From a virus, in the IMG/VR virus record IMGVR_UViG_3300032224_000142, positions 1 to 20,386 of that record: a stretch of DNA of 20,386 nt. The stretch is one strand, 5' to 3'. Both the position numbers and the translations under genes were made by a program. Positions 449 to 12,223 of the stretch are shown piece by piece. Numbering within the stretch: position 1 is the stretch's first letter; every line of letters starts with the position of its first letter. The notes under the pieces were generated by a model that saw nothing but the letters and a program-made list of their open reading frames with translations, was not told where the DNA came from and did not search any database.

Positions 449-661
449 CTAGTGCTTGGTGATGTGTTCCGTCAACCGCTCAGAAACCTTATCCACCTTG
501 TCCTCTGTGCGGTCTTGTGCGCGTCGCATTAAACGCAACATAGCCATAACAGTGTCATGGTCTTTACGGTTTTCAGTTTTGAAACGTTGAATGATTACGG
601 TCAGCAGACCGAAAGCACCAGTAACAGCAGCAGCAAGAATGAGAGCGATCCCACTATCCAC
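449..661 (-). CDS. Membrane-anchored helical protein, lysis-cassette accessory
   Basis: A 70-residue protein with one strong transmembrane segment (about residues 5-24, IALILAAAVTGAFGLLTVII) followed by a charged, helical, probably coiled-coil tail rich in Arg, Lys, Asp and Glu (residues 26-70, ending RLTEHITKH). Actinobacterial phages often have such an N-terminally anchored protein with a helical tail next to the endolysin, usually annotated as membrane protein or holin. Here it follows the endolysin directly. The GTG start at 661 lies one base after the endolysin TGA. An ATG two bases upstream is in a different frame and gives no comparable product. It could be an accessory holin or a spanin-like protein, and the sequence does not decide between these. 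No lipobox or second membrane segment is present. Confidence 0.75.
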   Translation of the reverse strand: MDSGIALILAAAVTGAFGLLTVIIQRFKTENRKDHDTVMAMLRLMRRAQDRTEDKVDKVSERLTEHITKH

Positions 662-662
662 A

Positions 663-1208
663 TCAAGCAGGCTTCCCTACGAAACGGATATGCCACGGCT
701 CTGCGCCTTTGCCGTTAGCGTCACCAAGAACTTCATGTGAGAAACCAAACTTCACTTCGTTAGCAAGAAGCCAATCAAGAACTTTCCCTGAAGCATTAGC
801 AACGTCGACAGCAATACCATAAAGATGCCTAGACCCACGCGCTTTGTCGTTCGCTGGATCATCATACGGTGTAGCCAAGATAGCCATACCAGGCTTCAGA
901 TACCACGTTTCGCCATTCCAAGTTTTCGTGGAAGTATTTGGCAAAACTTCTTTTGTGTAGCGGGAACGGAAGCCAGCCTCTTGCTGTGAAACTGATCGCA
1001 GTGTGTCACCGGCGCTAGTCGCGTGAAGAACTATGCCTTCTGCTTTCGCAGCGACAACCATTTCTTCCCACGCTGCAGCAGCACATTTTTCCAACTTGCC
1101 TCCACCCGTGATGGGGGCGACCATAACTAGGGTAATCTCAGAAGGTTTCTTGCCTTTAAGATGTTCACACCAATGAATCGGCTTGACAGGCCAGTTCGGT
1201 TTTGGCAC
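663..1208 (-). CDS. Endolysin, M15 family (VanY-type) peptidase
   Basis: A 181-residue peptidoglycan peptidase that should cut the peptide part of the host cell wall at the end of infection. The zinc site of the M15/VanY family is complete: the SRHLYGIAVDV motif gives His128 and Asp135 as ligands, and EPWHIRF gives catalytic Glu170 and third ligand His173. Upstream, TSAGDTLRS (residues 64-72) and the FRSRYT stretch match the substrate-side region of the family. There is no signal peptide and no separate wall-binding domain, so export would need the neighbouring holin-like proteins. The start is GTG, overlapping the TAG of the holin-like gene by one base (TAGTG), with AAGG about seven bases before it. 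The peptidase family is clear. Whether it cleaves a cross-link or acts as a D,D-carboxypeptidase cannot be told from sequence. Confidence 0.9.
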   Translation of the reverse strand: MPKPNWPVKPIHWCEHLKGKKPSEITLVMVAPITGGGKLEKCAAAAWEEMVVAAKAEGIVLHATSAGDTLRSVSQQEAGFRSRYTKEVLPNTSTKTWNGETWYLKPGMAILATPYDDPANDKARGSRHLYGIAVDVANASGKVLDWLLANEVKFGFSHEVLGDANGKGAEPWHIRFVGKPA

Positions 1209-1453
1209 TACTCTGCCTTGGTCTTAGGTGCTGCTGAACCTGAGAACGCAATTTCGATTTCTTCTTTGGTGAGTGAACCGTCAACACTGAAGCGCAAAAG
1301 CTTTTCTACTACTTGGGCAGTTGCCATTAGTCCGGCTAAAGCTGCAGACTTCCAAAGATCAACACCGATTAAAGCACCACCAGCAATAGCTGCCAATGCA
1401 GATGAACCAAATAGTGCGAAGATGCGGAAGATGATGTTTTGAAGTTTTGCCAT
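1208..1453 (-). CDS. Class II holin-like membrane protein
   Basis: An 81-residue protein with two hydrophobic helices (about residues 7-30 and 34-50) joined by a very short turn (GVDLWK) and a polar C-terminal tail (DGSLTKEEIEIAFS, then AAPKTKAE). This two-helix hairpin with a charged tail is the class II holin layout, and the wording of the second helix (VDLWKSAALAGLMATAQVVEKL) matches small phage membrane proteins of actinobacterial phages. It directly precedes the endolysin, with which it overlaps by one base. Its own ATG lies one base after the TGA of the 53-aa membrane protein. By family and position it would permeabilise the inner membrane and release the endolysin. The 53-aa or 70-aa neighbours could instead be the main holin or modulate it. 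Confidence 0.8.
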   Translation of the reverse strand: MAKLQNIIFRIFALFGSSALAAIAGGALIGVDLWKSAALAGLMATAQVVEKLLRFSVDGSLTKEEIEIAFSGSAAPKTKAE

Positions 1454-1454
1454 G

Positions 1455-1616
1455 TCAGTCTTTCTTGGAGAGGGTTAGTGCAGAGTGTACCAAAACGGCT
1501 ATTCCTGTTATCAAAGTTGCTTGTCGAAGGGTGGGTCCCGAGAGGGTGATGAGAACCATGCCGGTTCCAGCCCATGTCCAAGAGTTATCTAGTAGGTAAT
1601 CCAATATCTTTCTCAT
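1455..1616 (-). CDS. Tiny two-helix membrane protein, holin or holin partner
   Basis: A 53-residue frame starting MRKILDYLLDNSWTWAG and ending SALTLSKKD. It has two probable membrane segments (about residues 13-26 and 33-49) separated by GPTLRQA, and short charged ends. Both boundaries fit the operon: its ATG overlaps the stop of the secreted protein gene (ATGA), and its TGA is followed after one base by the ATG of the holin-like gene. An overlapping 70-codon frame at 1369-1581 is rejected because it ignores both junctions. With the next gene it gives two consecutive small membrane proteins before the endolysin, the usual arrangement of a holin pair or a holin and its regulator. No family is recognised, so the function is inferred from size, topology and place. 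Confidence 0.7.
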   Translation of the reverse strand: MRKILDYLLDNSWTWAGTGMVLITLSGPTLRQATLITGIAVLVHSALTLSKKD

Positions 1617-3046
1617 TTGCGTCTAATTCTACTACCTGCTGTTGCGAGGGTTATCCCCGCTGTGATGGCGATGAGAGTACGTCGTGTCCCTACCGGAATG
1701 TTTGATCCGATTGGCACGTAGGTGTCTAGTGCGTTCTTGAAAATGTCAATGGTTGATTCAAATGCTGCGCGGATTTTGGTTGGCGCGGTCTGCACTGCTG
1801 CAATCAGTTCTTCGGTTTGTGCGTCGGACAGTTCGGCCACGTCTAGGGCTTCAAAGATTTGGGTGGCTTGTTCTTGGGTAATGACAGCAAGGACTTCAGG
1901 GCTAGAAGCGAGGGCGGTTGCCTGGGCTTGGGTTGGTTCGTCAGCGAGCAGGGCTTCGACGACCTGTGCGACTTGTTCGGGGGCTAGGTCGGCTAGGGCT
2001 TCTATAAGGGCTTCTGTGGTTTCAGCCTCTACAAGTATGTTCTCCACCTCCTCGTCGCTTAGAGGGGCTTCTAGAGGGGTATCCGTGGCTTCTGGCAGGG
2101 TTGTGTTCACGACTGGTTCTTCTGTAGTGTCGGGGGATGGCTCAGGACTTGGTTCAGTTGTCGTGGTTGTTTCTTCGGGAAGCGTTGTTTCTGGCGTGGA
2201 TTCCTCTATTGATATGCTTGTGGTGCCTGTCTCGGTTGGTTCAGGCTCTTCAGGAACGACGGTATCAACGGATTCTGGCTCAGATATTTGAGGGACGGTA
2301 ACAGGTGTTGGAACTGCTGGTGGTTCTGTTGTGGTCGACGTTGATTCTGTTGATGTTGTTTGGGGTACGGAAGTACTGGTAGTGCTAGTTGAGTTCTCCA
2401 CAGAAGTTGTTGTCTGAGGAATAGTTGTTGAGGTTGTCGTTGTTGTCGTTGATGACGTTGTTGTTGTTGAGGTCGTAGAAGTAGTAGTTGTTTCTGGAAC
2501 TGTCGTAGTAGTCGGGACTGTGGCAGGGACAGTCGATGGTGGGACAGTAGTAGTAGTGGTCGTCGTTGTTGTCGTGGATGTTGTTGTAGATACCCATAAA
2601 GACAGGTTACTAATAGTTAGGTTGCCTGGCTGACAACAAGTATCAATCGAGTATTGCCTAAATGTGAACACATCGCCTTCGTGGACAGGGATGGATGCCG
2701 AACCGTTTTGGGTTTGTTGCCACAAATTTCCGAGGGGTTTATACACACCATTTACCGCATACTGTGGTGGGTCATACCATGCACCATCGTTGGTTTGGTA
2801 TGCCCAAGTAAAATCAATTGTGTCCACATTGGTGGGGATTGTGGTCTCAATCTTGACCCAATTCGGACCGCAACATTCACCGTCAGGTCCATGGAGGACG
2901 ATGCTGTTGTTAATTACTTCTACTGAGCCAGTGGTTCCTGATTGGCTGAATATCCAGTTGCCGAGAACGTCTGCTTTAGCGGGCTTTGCAAATAGTGCAA
3001 AGAGTATCGCGGGGATAATTATTAGCCAGCGTTTAGTGCGACCCAT
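1613..3046 (-). CDS. Secreted Thr-rich surface protein with N-terminal beta domain and C-terminal membrane anchor
   Basis: A 477-residue protein built like a bacterial cell-surface protein. Residues 1-25 are a signal peptide (basic start, hydrophobic core, AKA before Asp26). Residues 27-152 are a beta-sandwich-like domain with two Cys-Cys pairs (58-59 in GECCGPN and 137-138 in DTCCQPG) and a YAVNGVY motif resembling a domain of secreted and PEP-CTERM proteins. Residues 153-328 are a Thr/Ser/Pro/Glu linker. Residues 329-427 are acidic helices with a repeating 'PEQVAQVVEALLADE' pattern. A hydrophobic segment (458-470) and the basic end RIRRK close it. Thr-runs with VPP and TTTTVP are common in secreted proteins of Acidimicrobiia. 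It overlaps the 121-aa gene by 25 bases. It sits just before the lysis genes, so it may coat infected cells, block superinfection or aid lysis, or it may be a virion fibre. The function is unknown. Confidence 0.85.
   Translation of the reverse strand: MGRTKRWLIIIPAILFALFAKPAKADVLGNWIFSQSGTTGSVEVINNSIVLHGPDGECCGPNWVKIETTIPTNVDTIDFTWAYQTNDGAWYDPPQYAVNGVYKPLGNLWQQTQNGSASIPVHEGDVFTFRQYSIDTCCQPGNLTISNLSLWVSTTTSTTTTTTTTTTVPPSTVPATVPTTTTVPETTTTSTTSTTTTSSTTTTTTSTTIPQTTTSVENSTSTTSTSVPQTTSTESTSTTTEPPAVPTPVTVPQISEPESVDTVVPEEPEPTETGTTSISIEESTPETTLPEETTTTTEPSPEPSPDTTEEPVVNTTLPEATDTPLEAPLSDEEVENILVEAETTEALIEALADLAPEQVAQVVEALLADEPTQAQATALASSPEVLAVITQEQATQIFEALDVAELSDAQTEELIAAVQTAPTKIRAAFESTIDIFKNALDTYVPIGSNIPVGTRRTLIAITAGITLATAGSRIRRK
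2063..2590 (-). repeat. Low-complexity Thr/Ser/Pro/Glu coding region
   Basis: This DNA encodes residues 153-328 of the secreted protein. The densest part (about 2321-2590) is long runs of threonine with VPP or TVP interruptions. On the plus strand it appears as gttgttgtcgttgt-like simple sequence. Different threonine codons are mixed (ACT, ACA, ACG, ACC), which argues for selection on the protein rather than recent slippage of one triplet. Such linkers are often glycosylated stalks, which is inference here. Confidence 0.8.
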
Positions 3047-3372
3047 GCCAAAGTTTCTTCATCCCAATAGAAAAACCCCTCTGGTTTTGGTGTTGGTGCT
3101 TGCCAATCGTTGTTGCTGTCAAGCGTCCATGATGCGAATGGTTGTGGTGCTACAAACTGGTCAGCGTCAGCATCATAGGTAAAACCGATGCCTGCATATT
3201 GTTTGCGGATATTGCCGTTGTAACTAGTTTGCAACCAGGTGCCGCCAAGTAAATCGTGAAGAAAGTCAATTCCTTTTTGTTCAACCTCAACATCGCCAAC
3301 AAGAAGTTCGCTGTTATTTACAACGAGTACTCGTGTGACAATTCCATCTGAAATTTCTGCAAAATGTGCCAT
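3022..3372 (-). CDS. Conserved small phage tail-region protein (MAHFA family)
   Basis: A 116-residue protein starting MAHFAEISDGIVTRVLVVNN. The pattern of a MAHFA start, VTxVxVVNN, GTWLQTSYNGNIRKQYAGIG, a YDADADQFVAPQPFASW segment and a closing YWDEETLAWV is one I know from many cyanophages and other aquatic phages, where it is a conserved hypothetical often found near tail-fibre genes. Its molecular role is not established. The ATG at 3372 overlaps the TAA of the glycine-rich fibre gene (TAATG); an upstream in-frame ATG ten codons earlier adds only out-of-family residues. Its neighbours are fibres, so a tail-tip or adhesin-associated part is likely. The family recognition is confident, the role is not. 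Confidence 0.85.
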   Translation of the reverse strand: MAHFAEISDGIVTRVLVVNNSELLVGDVEVEQKGIDFLHDLLGGTWLQTSYNGNIRKQYAGIGFTYDADADQFVAPQPFASWTLDSNNDWQAPTPKPEGFFYWDEETLAWVALNAG

Positions 3373-4463
3373 TAGAAAGTAATGCTTCCCGAACCAGTCC
3401 ATGTGTAACGCTTATATGTGCCATCATCACTGAATGTTGGCGAACCTGTTGTTGAGGCTGCTGTTGGTTGCGTTGAGGCGTATCTAATAATAACGATTCC
3501 GCTACCGCCAGTTCCACCAGCACTACCAGAAGCACCAGCACCACCGCCACCGCCACCCTTGCCGTTGGTACCAGGCTGACCACTGTCAGACCCACCACCA
3601 CCGTCAGCACCACCCCAAGCAGTATTTCCGCTTCCTGGAATATAGCCAGAGTTAGAACCACCACCGCCACCGCCAGCATAATTTACAGACGAACCACTAA
3701 TGCTGGATGCGATACCAATACCACCATCTTTGCTCGATGTTCCACCTGCACCAGCACCGCCACCACCACCTGCCCTGTTTCCATCAAGATAAGTTTGACC
3801 GTTGTAACCCTGACCTGAAGTTCCAGCACCACCACTATTTAAGCCACCGCCACCACCGCCAGAACCACCACTGTTACCTGTTGTATTATTTCCACCCTTG
3901 CCACCACCAGTTGAGGAAACAGTGTGGAAAACAGATGCGTTGCCGTTACTTGCACTGCCGCCACCACCAACCGTGACCGTATAAGTATTTCCACCTGAAG
4001 TAACGCTAATTGGTGATTCTGCCGAAGAGTTACCACCAGATGTTCCAGCAGATGTTCTAAAACCTCCAGCACCACCACCGCCACCACGGTTTCCAACACC
4101 ACCTGATCCGCCACCAGCAACAACAAGGAAGTCAACATTGAACTGAGCAAGAGTCGTAAATGAAGTCCCAGAAGAAGCAGGACCAGAACCAACAATGTTT
4201 ACTGCCCGTAAATAAACTGTATATGCAGTGTAAGTTGATAAGCCACTAATAGTTATCGGGCTGATTGCATTAGCTGGACTTAATGCAGTCCATGAAGAAC
4301 CATTGAACGAATACTCATAGTTCGTAATAGCCGAACCACCATCATTTGTTGGTGCAGTAAACGAAACAACTACAGACGATGTAGTTATAGAAGAAGTGCT
4401 TAACGATGTTGGAGCGTTAACAGGGGCAGAAGCATACGAATTCGGTATGCCAAGAATTTGCAT
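3372..4463 (-). CDS. Tail-tip or fibre protein: fibronectin type III domain plus glycine-rich adhesin
   Basis: A 363-residue protein. Residues 16-105 form one fibronectin type III domain (opening APTSLSTSSITTSSVVVSF, closing YTVYLRAVNIVGSGPAS). A joining strand, FNVDFLVVAGGG (about 108-119), leads into a roughly 200-residue glycine-rich region, with Gly runs broken by Ser, Ala and Asn, ending in GGSGIVIIRY at about 319-328. The end (TYKRYTWTGSGSITF) is the short beta motif that often closes such proteins. Glycine-rich regions of this type form packed polyglycine helices in the tip adhesins of some phages, so a receptor-binding role is likely. The ATG at 4463 is preferred because it lies two bases after the previous stop; an ATG 11 codons upstream lies inside the preceding gene. 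The ribosome binding site is weak, suggesting coupling. Confidence 0.8.
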   Translation of the reverse strand: MQILGIPNSYASAPVNAPTSLSTSSITTSSVVVSFTAPTNDGGSAITNYEYSFNGSSWTALSPANAISPITISGLSTYTAYTVYLRAVNIVGSGPASSGTSFTTLAQFNVDFLVVAGGGSGGVGNRGGGGGAGGFRTSAGTSGGNSSAESPISVTSGGNTYTVTVGGGGSASNGNASVFHTVSSTGGGKGGNNTTGNSGGSGGGGGGLNSGGAGTSGQGYNGQTYLDGNRAGGGGGAGAGGTSSKDGGIGIASSISGSSVNYAGGGGGGSNSGYIPGSGNTAWGGADGGGGSDSGQPGTNGKGGGGGGAGASGSAGGTGGSGIVIIRYASTQPTAASTTGSPTFSDDGTYKRYTWTGSGSITF

Positions 4464-4465
4464 AA

Positions 4466-5263
4466 CTATGCCGCCGTGTTGCCGACTAAAACCCACTCAT
4501 CAGTAGCAATTTTTATCAACGTAGCCGCCGAATACCGTCCGTTAAGTTTCAATTTTGAACCCTGTGAATTTATAGTTGGCGTTCCACCAACGGTTACCTG
4601 ACCTGCACCGAGTTGGACAATGTTCACTTGGTCGCCAATAGTAAAAGCAACAGAAGCGTTAGTCGGAACAGTCAAAGAAATTGCGGAAGCATTATTTAAC
4701 GTCACCAAATTGTGAGCATCCGAAAGCACAAGCGTATAAGTAGTTCCAGTCTGAGCGTTCAAAGTCAAGCCAGTCAACTTTGTAGAACCAACAGACCTAT
4801 CAGCCAAGCCAGCAGCAGGAACCTGTTTCCAAGACACACCATTTGTCGCTGCGGAATCAGCATGCAACGAGTAGTCGTTTGTTCCAACAGCCAAACGGTT
4901 TAAAGCCGAACCGGTGGTAACCAGCAAGTCACCCTTAGTTGTCAACTTGCTTACAAGTTCGTTTGCCTCGTCCGCATCATTAGCGGTAAACACCGGATAG
5001 ATCGTCGCACCCGCAGAATGGCTACTTGCACTCGTATCATCTTGCGCCCTAGTAAGAGTAAGAGTCGAACCCGAAATAGTTGCACTGCACTTCTCCTCAG
5101 CCGAAGTACCTGGATCAATAACAACGTAAAATGGAACACCAGCAGTAGATGGCCAGCCAGTAGTAGCAGTCAGGGAACAGGTCGTATCGCTAGTGTTGAT
5201 ACCAGCGGTGATCGTTGTTGCTGCCGCTGCGCCGTTGTATTGTCTGCGTGTAAAAGCTGCCAT
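4466..5263 (-). CDS. Tail fibre protein
   Basis: A 265-residue beta-rich protein. The first 100 residues form a small domain ending in a TRAQDDTSASSHSAGATIY motif and a FTANDADEAN helix, followed by KLTTKGDLLVTTG and RLAVGTNDYSLHADSAA. Both patterns are widespread in tail fibres of phages, where the first is an attachment module and the second starts the shaft. The C-terminal half (SDAHNLVTLNNASAISLTVP through VLVGNTAA) reads as a beta-helix or trimeric end domain. AAGGA lies seven bases before the ATG, and the preceding nozzle-like gene ends eight bases upstream. It should be a virion tail appendage; the receptor is unknown. The first domain shares its HxAGAxI motif with the tail adaptor-like protein at 7131. 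Confidence 0.8.
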   Translation of the reverse strand: MAAFTRRQYNGAAAATTITAGINTSDTTCSLTATTGWPSTAGVPFYVVIDPGTSAEEKCSATISGSTLTLTRAQDDTSASSHSAGATIYPVFTANDADEANELVSKLTTKGDLLVTTGSALNRLAVGTNDYSLHADSAATNGVSWKQVPAAGLADRSVGSTKLTGLTLNAQTGTTYTLVLSDAHNLVTLNNASAISLTVPTNASVAFTIGDQVNIVQLGAGQVTVGGTPTINSQGSKLKLNGRYSAATLIKIATDEWVLVGNTAA

Positions 5264-9143: not shown

Positions 9144-9300
9144 GTTTCTTCTGTTTCATACCGGCTTCGCTCATCGCAATAGCAACAGCCTGCTTACGAG
9201 ACTTAACAACAGGGCCTTTCTTGGAACCTGAGTGCAGTTTCCCTGCACCAAATTCCTTCATAACCTTGCCAACTTTTTTCTGTGCTTTAGTCTTTTTCAT
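9133..9300 (-). CDS. 55-aa DUF6496-like basic protein
   Basis: A 55-residue protein with 16 lysines: MKKTKAQKKVGKVMKEFGAG, then KLHSGSKKGPVVKSRKQAVA and IAMSEAGMKQKKRAK. The core VMKEFGAGKLHSGSKKGPVV followed by KSRKQAVAIAMSEA matches, to my memory, DUF6496, a short domain found both in bacteria and in phages. Its ATG overlaps the TGA of the glycosyltransferase gene (ATGA). Its role is not known to me; the very basic composition would allow binding to nucleic acid or to an acidic virion surface. The family recognition is strong because nearly the whole protein is the conserved core. Confidence 0.85.
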   Translation of the reverse strand: MKKTKAQKKVGKVMKEFGAGKLHSGSKKGPVVKSRKQAVAIAMSEAGMKQKKRAK

Positions 9301-10421
9301 ACAAGTAATCCTGCTTCTTTTAGAACGTCACGTACATTCAACACTACACGGTGTTTAACACCTGGCATAAGTTCCACTCGATGCCCACCAATATCGGCTT
9401 GCACCCGTCGTTTCACCTCAATCTCGCACTCAGGTTCCAATGCTTTCCATTTACCAGTAACCCTGTTGCCTGTCGGCTTAACCACCTGTAGTAACTGGTC
9501 GGCTGCCGTGTTCCAGTTGAACGCGCTTGTCTCGCCAGCATGGGTTTCTGCTTGCTGTCGGTAACGGTCACGGTTGTCATACAAGTCTTTGATCGCACTA
9601 AATATTGCATCAAATTCAGGTTCATCCCAATCACCCATGTTCTGCCACACACCCTCATTTGTTGGCACAGAACGGGTAGGGATTCGGTGTGTTGCTAGAT
9701 CGGAGAACTCTCGATGACCATGCGCGTCAGACAAAATGGTGGGTACACCAGCAGAGATTGCTTGTAAAGGCATCAGTCCGAAACCTTCACCACGGGACAC
9801 CGAGATGAAGCAGTCAGCAGAGCGCACTAGATCAGCTTCGGCTTCTACGGTCATCCACTTGTCATGCACCACCACATTTGGGTAAACAAGGTTGTTGGGG
9901 GCTGACAGGTGTGGGGGAACGATCTTGATGTGCAGTTCAGCGTCAGGCAGGTTCATCTCTAGGAATACTTTGAGAACAACATCTAATCCTTTGCGATACC
10001 ACTCTGACCCGCCACACAAAATCTTGAACTTCTTGTTCTCAGGTCGAGCCTTCGGGTACCAAATATCACGGTCAACCCCTAAAGGTATTACACGCACATT
10101 GTCATGGAACTGTGAGAACAACTCCCAGTTATGCAGGGATGGCACAACCACCGTGTCAAACAGGTGCAGATATTCTGAGAACTGTGGTGGCAACCAGTTC
10201 GTTTCCCACATAGTCAGCAACGCAGGGTTCTGTCCTGTAGTCCAACCTTTAATCAGGTTAGGTCTGAGAGCAAACACAACCCGTTCAGCGTTATCACACA
10301 GTTCAACTTTGGTTGATAGCGCGTCCCGCAAACCGGACACCATTTTGCCGTACCCCACATGAGGCAGGTTCACACCGACAAGGCTCAGGTATTGGGAAGT
10401 ATTCCCGTTTCGACTTGCCAT
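9297..10421 (-). CDS. GT-B glycosyltransferase (GT4-like) with extra C-terminal domain
   Basis: A 374-residue sugar transferase of the GT-B fold. The N-terminal half begins with a strand and glycine loop (LVGVNLPHVGYGKMVSG, 14-30) and holds MWETNWLP (71-78), VPSLHNWELF (93-102) and IPLGVD (112-117). The C-terminal nucleotide-sugar half carries SRGEGFGLMPLQAISAGVPT (209-228), the E-x7-E type motif region of Glycos_transf_1, here with Glu211 and Gln220 in place of the usual second Glu. Residues 330-374 (EVKRRVQADIGGHRVELMPG onward) are a beta-rich addition outside the GT fold. The ATG lies inside the end of the previous gene (37-base overlap), with a weak ribosome binding site. Glycosylated capsids and tails are known in some mycobacteriophages, so modification of virion proteins is the likely role. 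The acceptor cannot be told. Confidence 0.85.
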   Translation of the reverse strand: MASRNGNTSQYLSLVGVNLPHVGYGKMVSGLRDALSTKVELCDNAERVVFALRPNLIKGWTTGQNPALLTMWETNWLPPQFSEYLHLFDTVVVPSLHNWELFSQFHDNVRVIPLGVDRDIWYPKARPENKKFKILCGGSEWYRKGLDVVLKVFLEMNLPDAELHIKIVPPHLSAPNNLVYPNVVVHDKWMTVEAEADLVRSADCFISVSRGEGFGLMPLQAISAGVPTILSDAHGHREFSDLATHRIPTRSVPTNEGVWQNMGDWDEPEFDAIFSAIKDLYDNRDRYRQQAETHAGETSAFNWNTAADQLLQVVKPTGNRVTGKWKALEPECEIEVKRRVQADIGGHRVELMPGVKHRVVLNVRDVLKEAGLLV

Positions 10422-10669: not shown

Positions 10670-10961
10670 TGATATAACTCCCGTATCCTGCTGCTGTTAG
10701 CGATGCTACCTCAGTAGCGTTCACCACGTTCTCATGCCCACCGTAGTAGGTCTTTGTAACCGTTGCCATGTCACCAGGCTGGTTCTCGGTATATGCACCA
10801 GTATTTAACAGGTACACGTTTCTTCCTCTAGCAGTTGGGGCAACATGGGACGCTAAACGGTTAGCAAGCCGTTCCTCTTGCGATAGCACAATTCCTTTAG
10901 TGAACATCTCTGGGAGTGTTTTACGGGAGTAGTTGTCTGTTGGTGTGCGAAAGATAGCCAT
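10662..10961 (-). CDS. Small tail protein, paralogue of the C-terminal domain of the repeat fibre
   Basis: A 99-residue protein, MAIFRTPTDNYSRKTLPEMF to GYGSYISG. It aligns with the last 90 residues of the upstream 420-aa fibre: IFRxP near the start, ANRL, a RGRNVYLLNTGAYT stretch against VRNLYKLTSGDYT, YYGGHENVVNATEV against WLGGHDHYLSDAEV, and LTAAGYG against LTAAGFG. This module is one I associate with tail proteins of actinobacterial phages. The ATG at 10961 overlaps the fibre gene's TAA (TAATG). A longer in-frame start 28 codons upstream would read into the fibre gene and is rejected. It probably joins or caps the fibre; the exact role is unknown. Confidence 0.8.
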   Translation of the reverse strand: MAIFRTPTDNYSRKTLPEMFTKGIVLSQEERLANRLASHVAPTARGRNVYLLNTGAYTENQPGDMATVTKTYYGGHENVVNATEVASLTAAGYGSYISG

Positions 10962-12223
10962 TAGGTGATGCTTGCTCCAAATCCTGCTGCGGTTAACTCT
11001 ACAACTTCTGCGTCGCTCAGATAATGGTCGTGTCCACCTAGCCACAGTTTTGCTACTTGGCCTTGATCGCGTTGATCGATTGTTGTGTAGTCCCCACTGG
11101 TCAATTTGTATAAGTTGCGGACACGGATGTTTGTGCGGTTGTAGCGTTGCAAACGGTTAGCAGCATCATTAGCACCGAAGTATCCACCAGGATATGTCTT
11201 TGTGTATGGCACACGGAAAATATGGGATTTCATCCACTGAGCAAAAGTATCCACAGATGAACCGGACGCTGTTGCTGTACGCAAAATAACCCTTGCCCCT
11301 ACTCCTGAAGCTGATCCTGCTCCACTACCTGTAGCCGAACGTCGAATGGTGATGTAGGCGATTCCTGTCGATGTTCCTTGACCGGATCCTGTGCTGCTTC
11401 TAATAACTACACGGATGGCTGTACTTGATGCTGTTCCCTGTCCGCTTCCTGAAGCGGTTTTGAGTTTGGTGATGACACGGTTGGCGGCTGATGAGCCTGT
11501 TCCTGTTGATGCTGTTCCTGTTCGAATAACTGTGAGCAGTTTGATAGCAGTCTGTGTTCCTACACCTGTGCCTGTTGCTGTGCGTGGGGCTATGTGTAGT
11601 CCTGTAGCGGCTTGTGTGCCTGTACCTGACCCTGTGGCAGTGCGTGGGGCTACATGAAGCCCTGTAGCGGTCTGTGTGGCTGCTCCTGAACCTGTAGCGA
11701 TGCGTGAGCGTGTGATGAGTCTTGTGGTGGTTGCTGTTCCTGTACCTGAACCTGTAGCGGTTCTGAAACGTGTGATAAGACCTATTGCCCCACCGTTGGT
11801 AGAGCCGACACCTGAACCTGTGGCAGTTCGTGGGAGTATTTCTATTGCTGCTGCGCTTTGTGAACCTGTGCCTGAGCCTGTGGCGGTTCGTGCGCGGGTA
11901 ACGGATGCTGTGGCGGTTTGTGTGCCTGTACCTGACCCTGTGGCGGTTTGGGTGGTTATTGCTGCGCCGAGATAGAAACGTCCACCAAAGCGATAAGGGA
12001 AACTGAAGTCGGTTAATGCACCTAGTCGAAGTTGGGTGACTTTGGTGGCTGCAACTGCGGTTCCAGTGCCTGAACCTGTGGCATCGCGTTTTGCTTGGAG
12101 AAGTTTTGTGGCGGTTTGTGTGCCAGTTCCTGAACCTGTAGCAGTTCTTGCTACAGCGGTTTGGTTATAGATTAAATCTGTTTGGCTGTAGGTATATTCA
12201 GATTGGTTGTATGAGATAGGCAT
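10961..12223 (-). CDS. Tail fibre with about 14 tandem 20-residue TATGSGTGT repeats
   Basis: A 420-residue protein. A 25-residue head (MPISYNQSEYTYSQTDLIYN) is followed by about 14 units (residues 26-327) of the pattern R-T-A-T-G-S-G-T-G-T-Q-T-A-T-x6, mostly 20 residues long (19 to 22). Units 2 and 3 are separated by a 27-residue non-repeat segment (RLGALTDFSFPYRFGGRFYL). Residues 328-420 form a compact domain shared with the next gene (IFRVPYTKTYPGG to LTAAGFGASIT). A Thr/Gly/Ser repeat of fixed length with alternating hydrophobic endings suits a beta-stranded fibre shaft. Many Thr and Ser could be sugar acceptors for the glycosyltransferase three genes on. AGG lies seven bases before the ATG. 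The virion role is inferred; host receptor binding is likely but unshown. Confidence 0.8.
   Translation of the reverse strand: MPISYNQSEYTYSQTDLIYNQTAVARTATGSGTGTQTATKLLQAKRDATGSGTGTAVAATKVTQLRLGALTDFSFPYRFGGRFYLGAAITTQTATGSGTGTQTATASVTRARTATGSGTGSQSAAAIEILPRTATGSGVGSTNGGAIGLITRFRTATGSGTGTATTTRLITRSRIATGSGAATQTATGLHVAPRTATGSGTGTQAATGLHIAPRTATGTGVGTQTAIKLLTVIRTGTASTGTGSSAANRVITKLKTASGSGQGTASSTAIRVVIRSSTGSGQGTSTGIAYITIRRSATGSGAGSASGVGARVILRTATASGSSVDTFAQWMKSHIFRVPYTKTYPGGYFGANDAANRLQRYNRTNIRVRNLYKLTSGDYTTIDQRDQGQVAKLWLGGHDHYLSDAEVVELTAAGFGASIT
11243..12148 (-). repeat. Tandem 60-base coding repeats in the fibre gene
   Basis: About 14 diverged units of roughly 60 bases, encoding the 20-residue TATGSGTGT repeat, in two blocks split by the 27-residue insert. 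The most alike neighbours are units 7 and 8 (about 11645-11704 and 11585-11644), which share the GLHxAP ending and long stretches of identical DNA, as expected of a recent duplication. Others have drifted to SGTAS- or SGQGT-like forms near the C-terminal end. The repeats create long false open frames on the plus strand. Confidence 0.85.

Follow-up and report, generated by a model that had tools for sequence, protein, structure and literature searches.

Little is understood of the final step of lysis by phages of Gram-positive actinobacteria, for which a spanin-like step directed at glycopolymers is only a recent proposal. For phages of Corynebacterium glutamicum, two secondary sources describe a holin with two transmembrane domains (2-TMD) together with LysZ, a 1-TMD protein proposed to act on a membrane-anchored glycopolymer or lipoglycan (PMC13056207, PMC13148394), and both cite the LysZ proteins of Corynebacterium phages CL31 and Cog (McKitterick, Lyerly and Bernhardt). 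F1 mycobacteriophages encode the holin-like pairs LysF1a/LysF1b in cassettes that are described without a lectin-headed protein (PMC13056207). The u-spanins of the T1 gp11 type combine an N-terminal export signal, a beta-rich outer domain and a C-terminal transmembrane segment, and they require a lipobox (PMC6139136).

The DNA analysed here (the window, i.e., the whole 20,386-base viral fragment) carries a lysis gene block headed by gene E (Table 1). A preliminary description had assigned to the E product a secretion layout comprising a signal peptide, a beta head, a Thr/Ser/Pro stalk, a helical region and a hydrophobic end with RIRRK, and hydropathy, composition and structure models bore this out. 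Signal peptide and membrane anchor were called by hydropathy and motif tests: a positive n-region and a hydrophobic core (KD15 maximum of 2.27 at residue 7) precede a cut between AKA and D after residue 25, and the second and last strongly hydrophobic segment (residues 457-472, KD15 of 1.65) is followed by RIRRK. This C-terminal segment is short and of moderate hydrophobicity, and a conserved motif, [IV]-[PD]-V-G-[TE]-R-[RK]-[TS]-L, stands before it with a basic tail behind. Nearly every intact E relative examined has the h-region, an [AVT]xA cut before [DE] and a hydrophobic, basic C-terminus, and the layout as a whole is repeated in more than 60 viral loci. The term "wall-anchored", applied to E previously, fails in the sortase sense, no LPXTG-type motif having been found ahead of the C-terminal hydrophobic segment, where IPVG[TE]RRTL places arginines directly before the segment. 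Likewise, the two Cys-Cys pairs noted earlier are present in the window E (CC58-59 and CC137-138) but are not a family trait, since only C58, C137 and C138 are invariant among the head cysteines; in most relatives C59 is absent and a Cys lies near residue 37 instead. The C-region (residues 326-449) was modelled as helical, and a fold search of the PDB with this domain gave no match below E = 0.17. Pfam matches to MgtE_N/FliG in some large E relatives were taken merely as helical repeats. The stalk (residues 153-325) contains 72 Thr, 25 Pro and 23 Ser among 173 residues. An alternate-frame ORF beginning MGIYNNIH lies within it (2385-2597, minus strand) and is present in many relatives; it is probably a shadow of Thr-codon repeats rather than an overlapping gene. 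In one relative (L022, 2639-3998) E is frameshifted inside the ACN-repeat stalk, the remainder being readable in another frame, which may reflect assembly error, decay or slippage-based variation.

Table 1. Gene E, its parts and its neighbours in the window, with the basis for each assignment
Feature	Position	Strand	Basis or remark
Gene B, 70 aa, one N-terminal hydrophobic segment and long charged tail	449..661	-	layout like LysF1b
VanY-type endolysin (PF02557), no obvious signal peptide	663..1208	-	Pfam match, gene order
Gene D1, 81-aa holin-like, hydrophobic N-terminal half, PHROG 26427	1208..1453	-	constant neighbour of E-X
Gene X, 53 aa (MRKILDYLLDNSWTWAGTGMVLITLSGPTLRQATLITGIAVLVHSALTLSKKD), two hydrophobic segments, phrog_29041	1455..1616	-	ATG overlaps E stop codon
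Gene E, 477-aa lectin-headed protein with signal peptide and C-terminal anchor	1613..3046	-	ATG at 3046
E anchor, residues 450-477: IPVGTRRTL, hydrophobic segment, RIRRK	1616..1699	-	invariant columns; variants in relatives
E helical C-domain, residues 326-449	1700..2071	-	structure model
E Thr/Ser/Pro stalk then acidic linker, residues 152-325	2072..2593	-	length varies among relatives
E head, residues 26-151, beta-sandwich	2594..2971	-	structure model, fold searches, swaps
E signal peptide, residues 1-25 (MGRTKRWLIIIPAILFALFAKPAKA), cut before D26, no lipobox Cys	2972..3046	-	hydropathy; cut site kept in relatives
Gene F (phrog_7759), upstream of E	3022..3402	-	overlaps E by 25 nt

The order tail/fibre genes, E, D1, VanY endolysin and gene B is kept across relatives (>25 loci), and from the 25-nt overlap of F and E it follows that E shares a late operon with F. 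Export signal, anchor and gene order thus support the earlier view of E as phage-encoded, secreted, surface-exposed, membrane-associated and adjoining the lysis genes. For the major capsid protein and a large virion protein, the closest counterparts are in Streptomyces phages of the Beephvirinae; no counterpart of E is listed at the corresponding position in Streptomyces phages whose virion genes are homologous. WhiB, a regulator of actinobacteria and actinophages, is encoded in 11 of 12 larger related records, and an Actinomycetota host for the E-carrying phages is therefore very likely, the Streptomyces-phage-like virion genes pointing the same way. A scan of GTDB genomes with short exact peptide patterns for the phage WhiB, which has limited sensitivity, matched no relative.

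Compared with the described systems, E can be grouped with the membrane-anchored auxiliary lysis proteins (spanin- or LysZ-like in function) as a member of neither family. As LysZ is described, E shares with it a place in an actinophage lysis cassette, one predicted transmembrane segment and a partner resembling a 2-TMD holin (gene X, so read from hydropathy and position). LysZ, however, has 177 aa and lies downstream of the lysins and holin, whereas E, usually 400-1160 aa long, has a signal peptide, lectin-type heads and a Thr stalk, precedes X, D1 and VanY in the gene order, and is in some phages fused to X; set beside LysZ by description, E would be functionally comparable to it. The likeness to u-spanins is one of layout (export signal, beta-rich outer domain, C-terminal hydrophobic segment by hydropathy, location in a lysis cassette), and the conserved hydrophobic residues 457-472 with RIRRK correspond by hydropathy to the u-spanin C-terminal transmembrane segment. 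Unlike u-spanins, E has a lectin head in place of a lipid anchor: no Cys occupies position +1 of the cut between AKA and D in the window E or of the cut in the relatives examined. Moreover, WhiB and the Streptomyces-phage-like virion genes point to an actinobacterial host and not to the Gram-negative host of u-spanins. The cassettes of E phages and F1 mycobacteriophages each hold several small transmembrane proteins of differing topology, and gene B resembles LysF1b in its single N-terminal transmembrane segment and charged tail. Similarity among E C-domains correlates more with gene B (Spearman 0.53) than with the nearer VanY (0.19).

Gene X, the immediate neighbour of E, was missed in the preliminary description and is absent from the ORF list on which it drew. 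Hydropathy gives X two hydrophobic segments, the second clear and the first weaker, and the family phrog_29041, of unknown function, matches the window X at 1.4e-33 and a protein of Actinomycetia phage DSL-LC01 at 1.8e-5. Of 146 loci with X (counted without deduplication), 143 have its start exactly at the E stop codon. A conserved "DMGWNRHG" frame after E, first taken as a leader or RNA element, proved to be an out-of-frame reading of X. The DSL-LC01 protein (WJZ48438.1, in OQ999401.1) has a C-domain and anchor homologous to those of E, Thr linkers, and X fused at its C-terminus (X HMM E = 1.7e-8 among the ORFs of that locus); it differs from the window E in its length (944 aa) and in having several heads, and is annotated merely as hypothetical. 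Two further scans with divergent X proteins yielded 100 non-redundant X loci, in 29 of which E and X are fused, some in records of more than 100 kb; an acidic linker connects the two in fused forms, and at nearly all unfused X loci whose upstream sequence is long enough, a separate E immediately precedes X. At one locus (L377) X lies near a VanY-like endolysin with no E, which fits X as a lysis protein in its own right. By hydropathy and position, with no curated holin annotation, X is a candidate holin and partner of E.

The linkage extends to D1, itself a candidate holin-like protein from its sequence features, with no curated holin annotation. PHROG 26427, to which this small protein with a hydrophobic N-terminal half belongs, is labelled "nuclease"; the label is probably an error that could propagate through annotations. 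E-X stands upstream of D1 at every one of the 85 non-redundant D1 loci that include 1.3 kb or more of upstream sequence. E was recognized by the strict anchor motif in about 70 of these (69-71), including one 83-aa form, and by reading ORFs in the other 14-16, where E has a signal peptide and a variant anchor; X was located by reading at some D1 loci where the profile missed it. Apparent absences of E at some D1 loci in the motif count were motif misses, and every locus inspected has E. Loci with D2, an unrelated small membrane protein in place of D1, are without E and X, and four of five (L130, L161, L164 and L209) retain decayed E fragments, most of them interrupted by stop codons. In these four, D2 (MQKIKAFTYNNP...) replaces X-D1 and the end of E. 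A weak tblastn E "remnant" in L137 was antisense low-complexity sequence and was not counted. Lineages without D1 (L212, L179/L184/L186) are also without E, and some related phages evidently do without it. A single recombination event that brought in D2 probably displaced X, D1 and the end of E at once, so that the co-loss of E and D1 is confounded by their adjacency and represents few independent losses (perhaps three lineages). D2 in related loci is accompanied by two different VanY types.

The beta domain noted earlier was confirmed as a confident beta-sandwich head (pLDDT mostly 86-95 over the head, with a mean of 78 for the whole construct). Pfam, PHROG and NCBIfam searches of the window E matched no family, and PDB sequence searches gave merely weak, unrelated matches. 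The best fold match of the head was the C-terminal domain of VesC (VIA Z 11.5); CBM70/16/29/35 modules (several CBMs at VIA Z 8-9) and phage tailspike domains (5w6h and 8iqe, Z 8-9) also resemble it, and matches in a viral structure library include tail proteins; the two entries that score best there, both long phage proteins that are uncharacterised, are 58% identical across the head. The modelled topology is that of a CBM-like beta-sandwich at moderate Z, a match to a fold and not to a family, and the CBM resemblance is suggestive only, because beta-sandwich matches at Z 8-9 are common. Judged by its fold, the window head may bind a glycan.

Among relatives, different heads are exchanged on the E-type anchor: the CBM-like jelly roll, PA14 (4e-8 to 5e-11; above the Pfam cut-off in L032, L144, L287 and L364), L-type (legume) lectin (6e-43 and 7e-44 in L354 and L403, above the Pfam cut-off) and SUEL lectin (1.5e-7 in the E relatives of L354/L403), while L214 and L347 bear short Cys/Trp-rich heads. 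The exchange is visible in the DNA of one pair, L095 and L098, which are 88% identical over 68 nt in the signal peptide region, show no detectable similarity through the head, and are again 85% identical from the distal stalk and last part of E through the lysis genes; identity on both sides of a dissimilar head indicates that the head was swapped. At the extreme, the 83-aa E of L148 consists of signal peptide and anchor without head or stalk, and X and D1 still follow, so the head is not always needed. Over hundreds of pairs, dN/dS was about 0.10 for heads and 0.09 for C-domains. E is under strong purifying selection, and this ratio together with the recurring layout identifies it as a maintained protein and not a compositional accident.

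From these results we propose that E supplies the sugar-binding part, outside the cell, of a lysis module, E-X-D1-VanY-B, in phages of freshwater Actinomycetota, a reading to which we give a probability of about 0.5. The signal peptide would export E late in infection; the head and Thr-rich stalk would reach out through the wall while the C-terminal segment stayed in the membrane, where the anchor would lie beside, or be fused to, the two-helix X. The head would bind an envelope glycan (a membrane- or wall-attached glycopolymer), X/D1 would open the membrane and the VanY endolysin would cut peptidoglycan, after which the E-X complex may help to disrupt or detach the glycan-rich outer layer in a manner comparable to spanin or LysZ. 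Of the roles suggested in the preliminary description, help in cell-wall disruption is the best supported, with the part in lysis itself a matter of inference, and that of a virion spike is disfavoured.

More tentatively, E may represent an undescribed class of lysis factor in monoderm actinobacteria, defined by exchangeable lectin heads, a membrane-anchored stalk and obligate pairing or fusion with a two-helix holin-like protein, which would grip envelope glycans and link the opening of the membrane to stripping of the glycan layer. The limited open-access literature searched contained no account of a lysis protein that is lectin-headed and holin-coupled, although E-related sequences are already in databases without a described function. 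The architecture of the E family in these freshwater viruses predicts a glycopolymer-directed lysis step and makes such a step testable, aided by the modular lectin heads, the identified partner gene X and the natural headless and fused versions of E; the heads would also offer lectins that probably recognise sugars of the actinobacterial envelope.

A secreted, surface-exposed protein whose sugar-binding-type heads are swapped between phages could alternatively form a late-displayed coat, its lectin head occupying receptor glycans and thereby blocking other phages, or keeping progeny from sticking to the dying cell and its debris. There is a precedent of sorts in CwpV, which is, like E, a surface protein and is reported to act on phage infection and protect its host but which, unlike E, is a host-encoded defence protein of a firmicute, Clostridioides difficile (PMC4737114). 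We consider such a coat unlikely for E, whose position is late and coupled to lysis genes, whose heads are under purifying selection and conserved within type, and whose obligate linkage to a two-helix holin-like protein, in some phages as a fusion, is something that a coat would not require. If E masked receptors, its head might be expected to co-vary with the virion fibre tip; with the anchor controlled, no such co-variation was found (partial Mantel r = -0.13, p = 0.92).

The same coupling lends itself to a reading of E as a lysis-timing sensor, in which the head would respond to a ligand of the envelope or from outside and, via X/D1, hold back or set off holin opening; T4 RI, which acts in lysis inhibition, offers a comparison. 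A small two-helix membrane protein that is directly linked or fused to an extracellular binding domain resembles a receptor-effector unit, and both the obligate D1 linkage and the acidic linker between E and X in fused forms would suit one. Sensing nevertheless appears quite unlikely, given that no evidence of regulation emerged, that the long stalk exceeds what a sensor needs and that the headless L148 form would have no sensor at all.

An origin of E by capture from the host had been raised in the preliminary description. One scan recovered 220 E relatives; relatives were seen only in viral contigs and phage DSL-LC01, and none was found in plasmids. The C-terminal module had no relative in about 85,000 bacterial and archaeal GTDB genomes when searched with short exact peptide patterns of limited sensitivity. 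Recent capture is therefore not supported, and the E family, which is large and widespread in actinophage contigs, is apparently phage-restricted. On the same evidence, together with the obligate linkage of E to X and D1, we regard as highly unlikely that E is a captured wall protein (a moron) unrelated to lysis and sitting in the late operon by chance, despite its host-style layout and the Thr-rich stalks that actinobacterial surface proteins are said often to carry. That E is a virion spike or fibre with an unused signal peptide is extremely improbable. In favour of a spike, E comes straight after the tail fibre genes, and phage tailspikes (5w6h, 8iqe) and tail proteins share the fold of its head. 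Against one, relatives keep the signal peptide and anchor even where the head differs or is missing, E adjoins a two-helix membrane protein or is fused with it, and no PHROG tail family matched E.

Three other genes of the window, all on the minus strand, were recorded. Directly upstream of the E region, an adhesin-like tail protein with FN3 and glycine-rich (Gly_rich_2) parts is encoded at 3372-4496 and differs strongly even between close relatives. Positions 9297-10421, amid virion genes, encode a GT4-type glycosyltransferase, and 10961-12223 encodes a protein made of repeated RTATGSGTGTQTA units.
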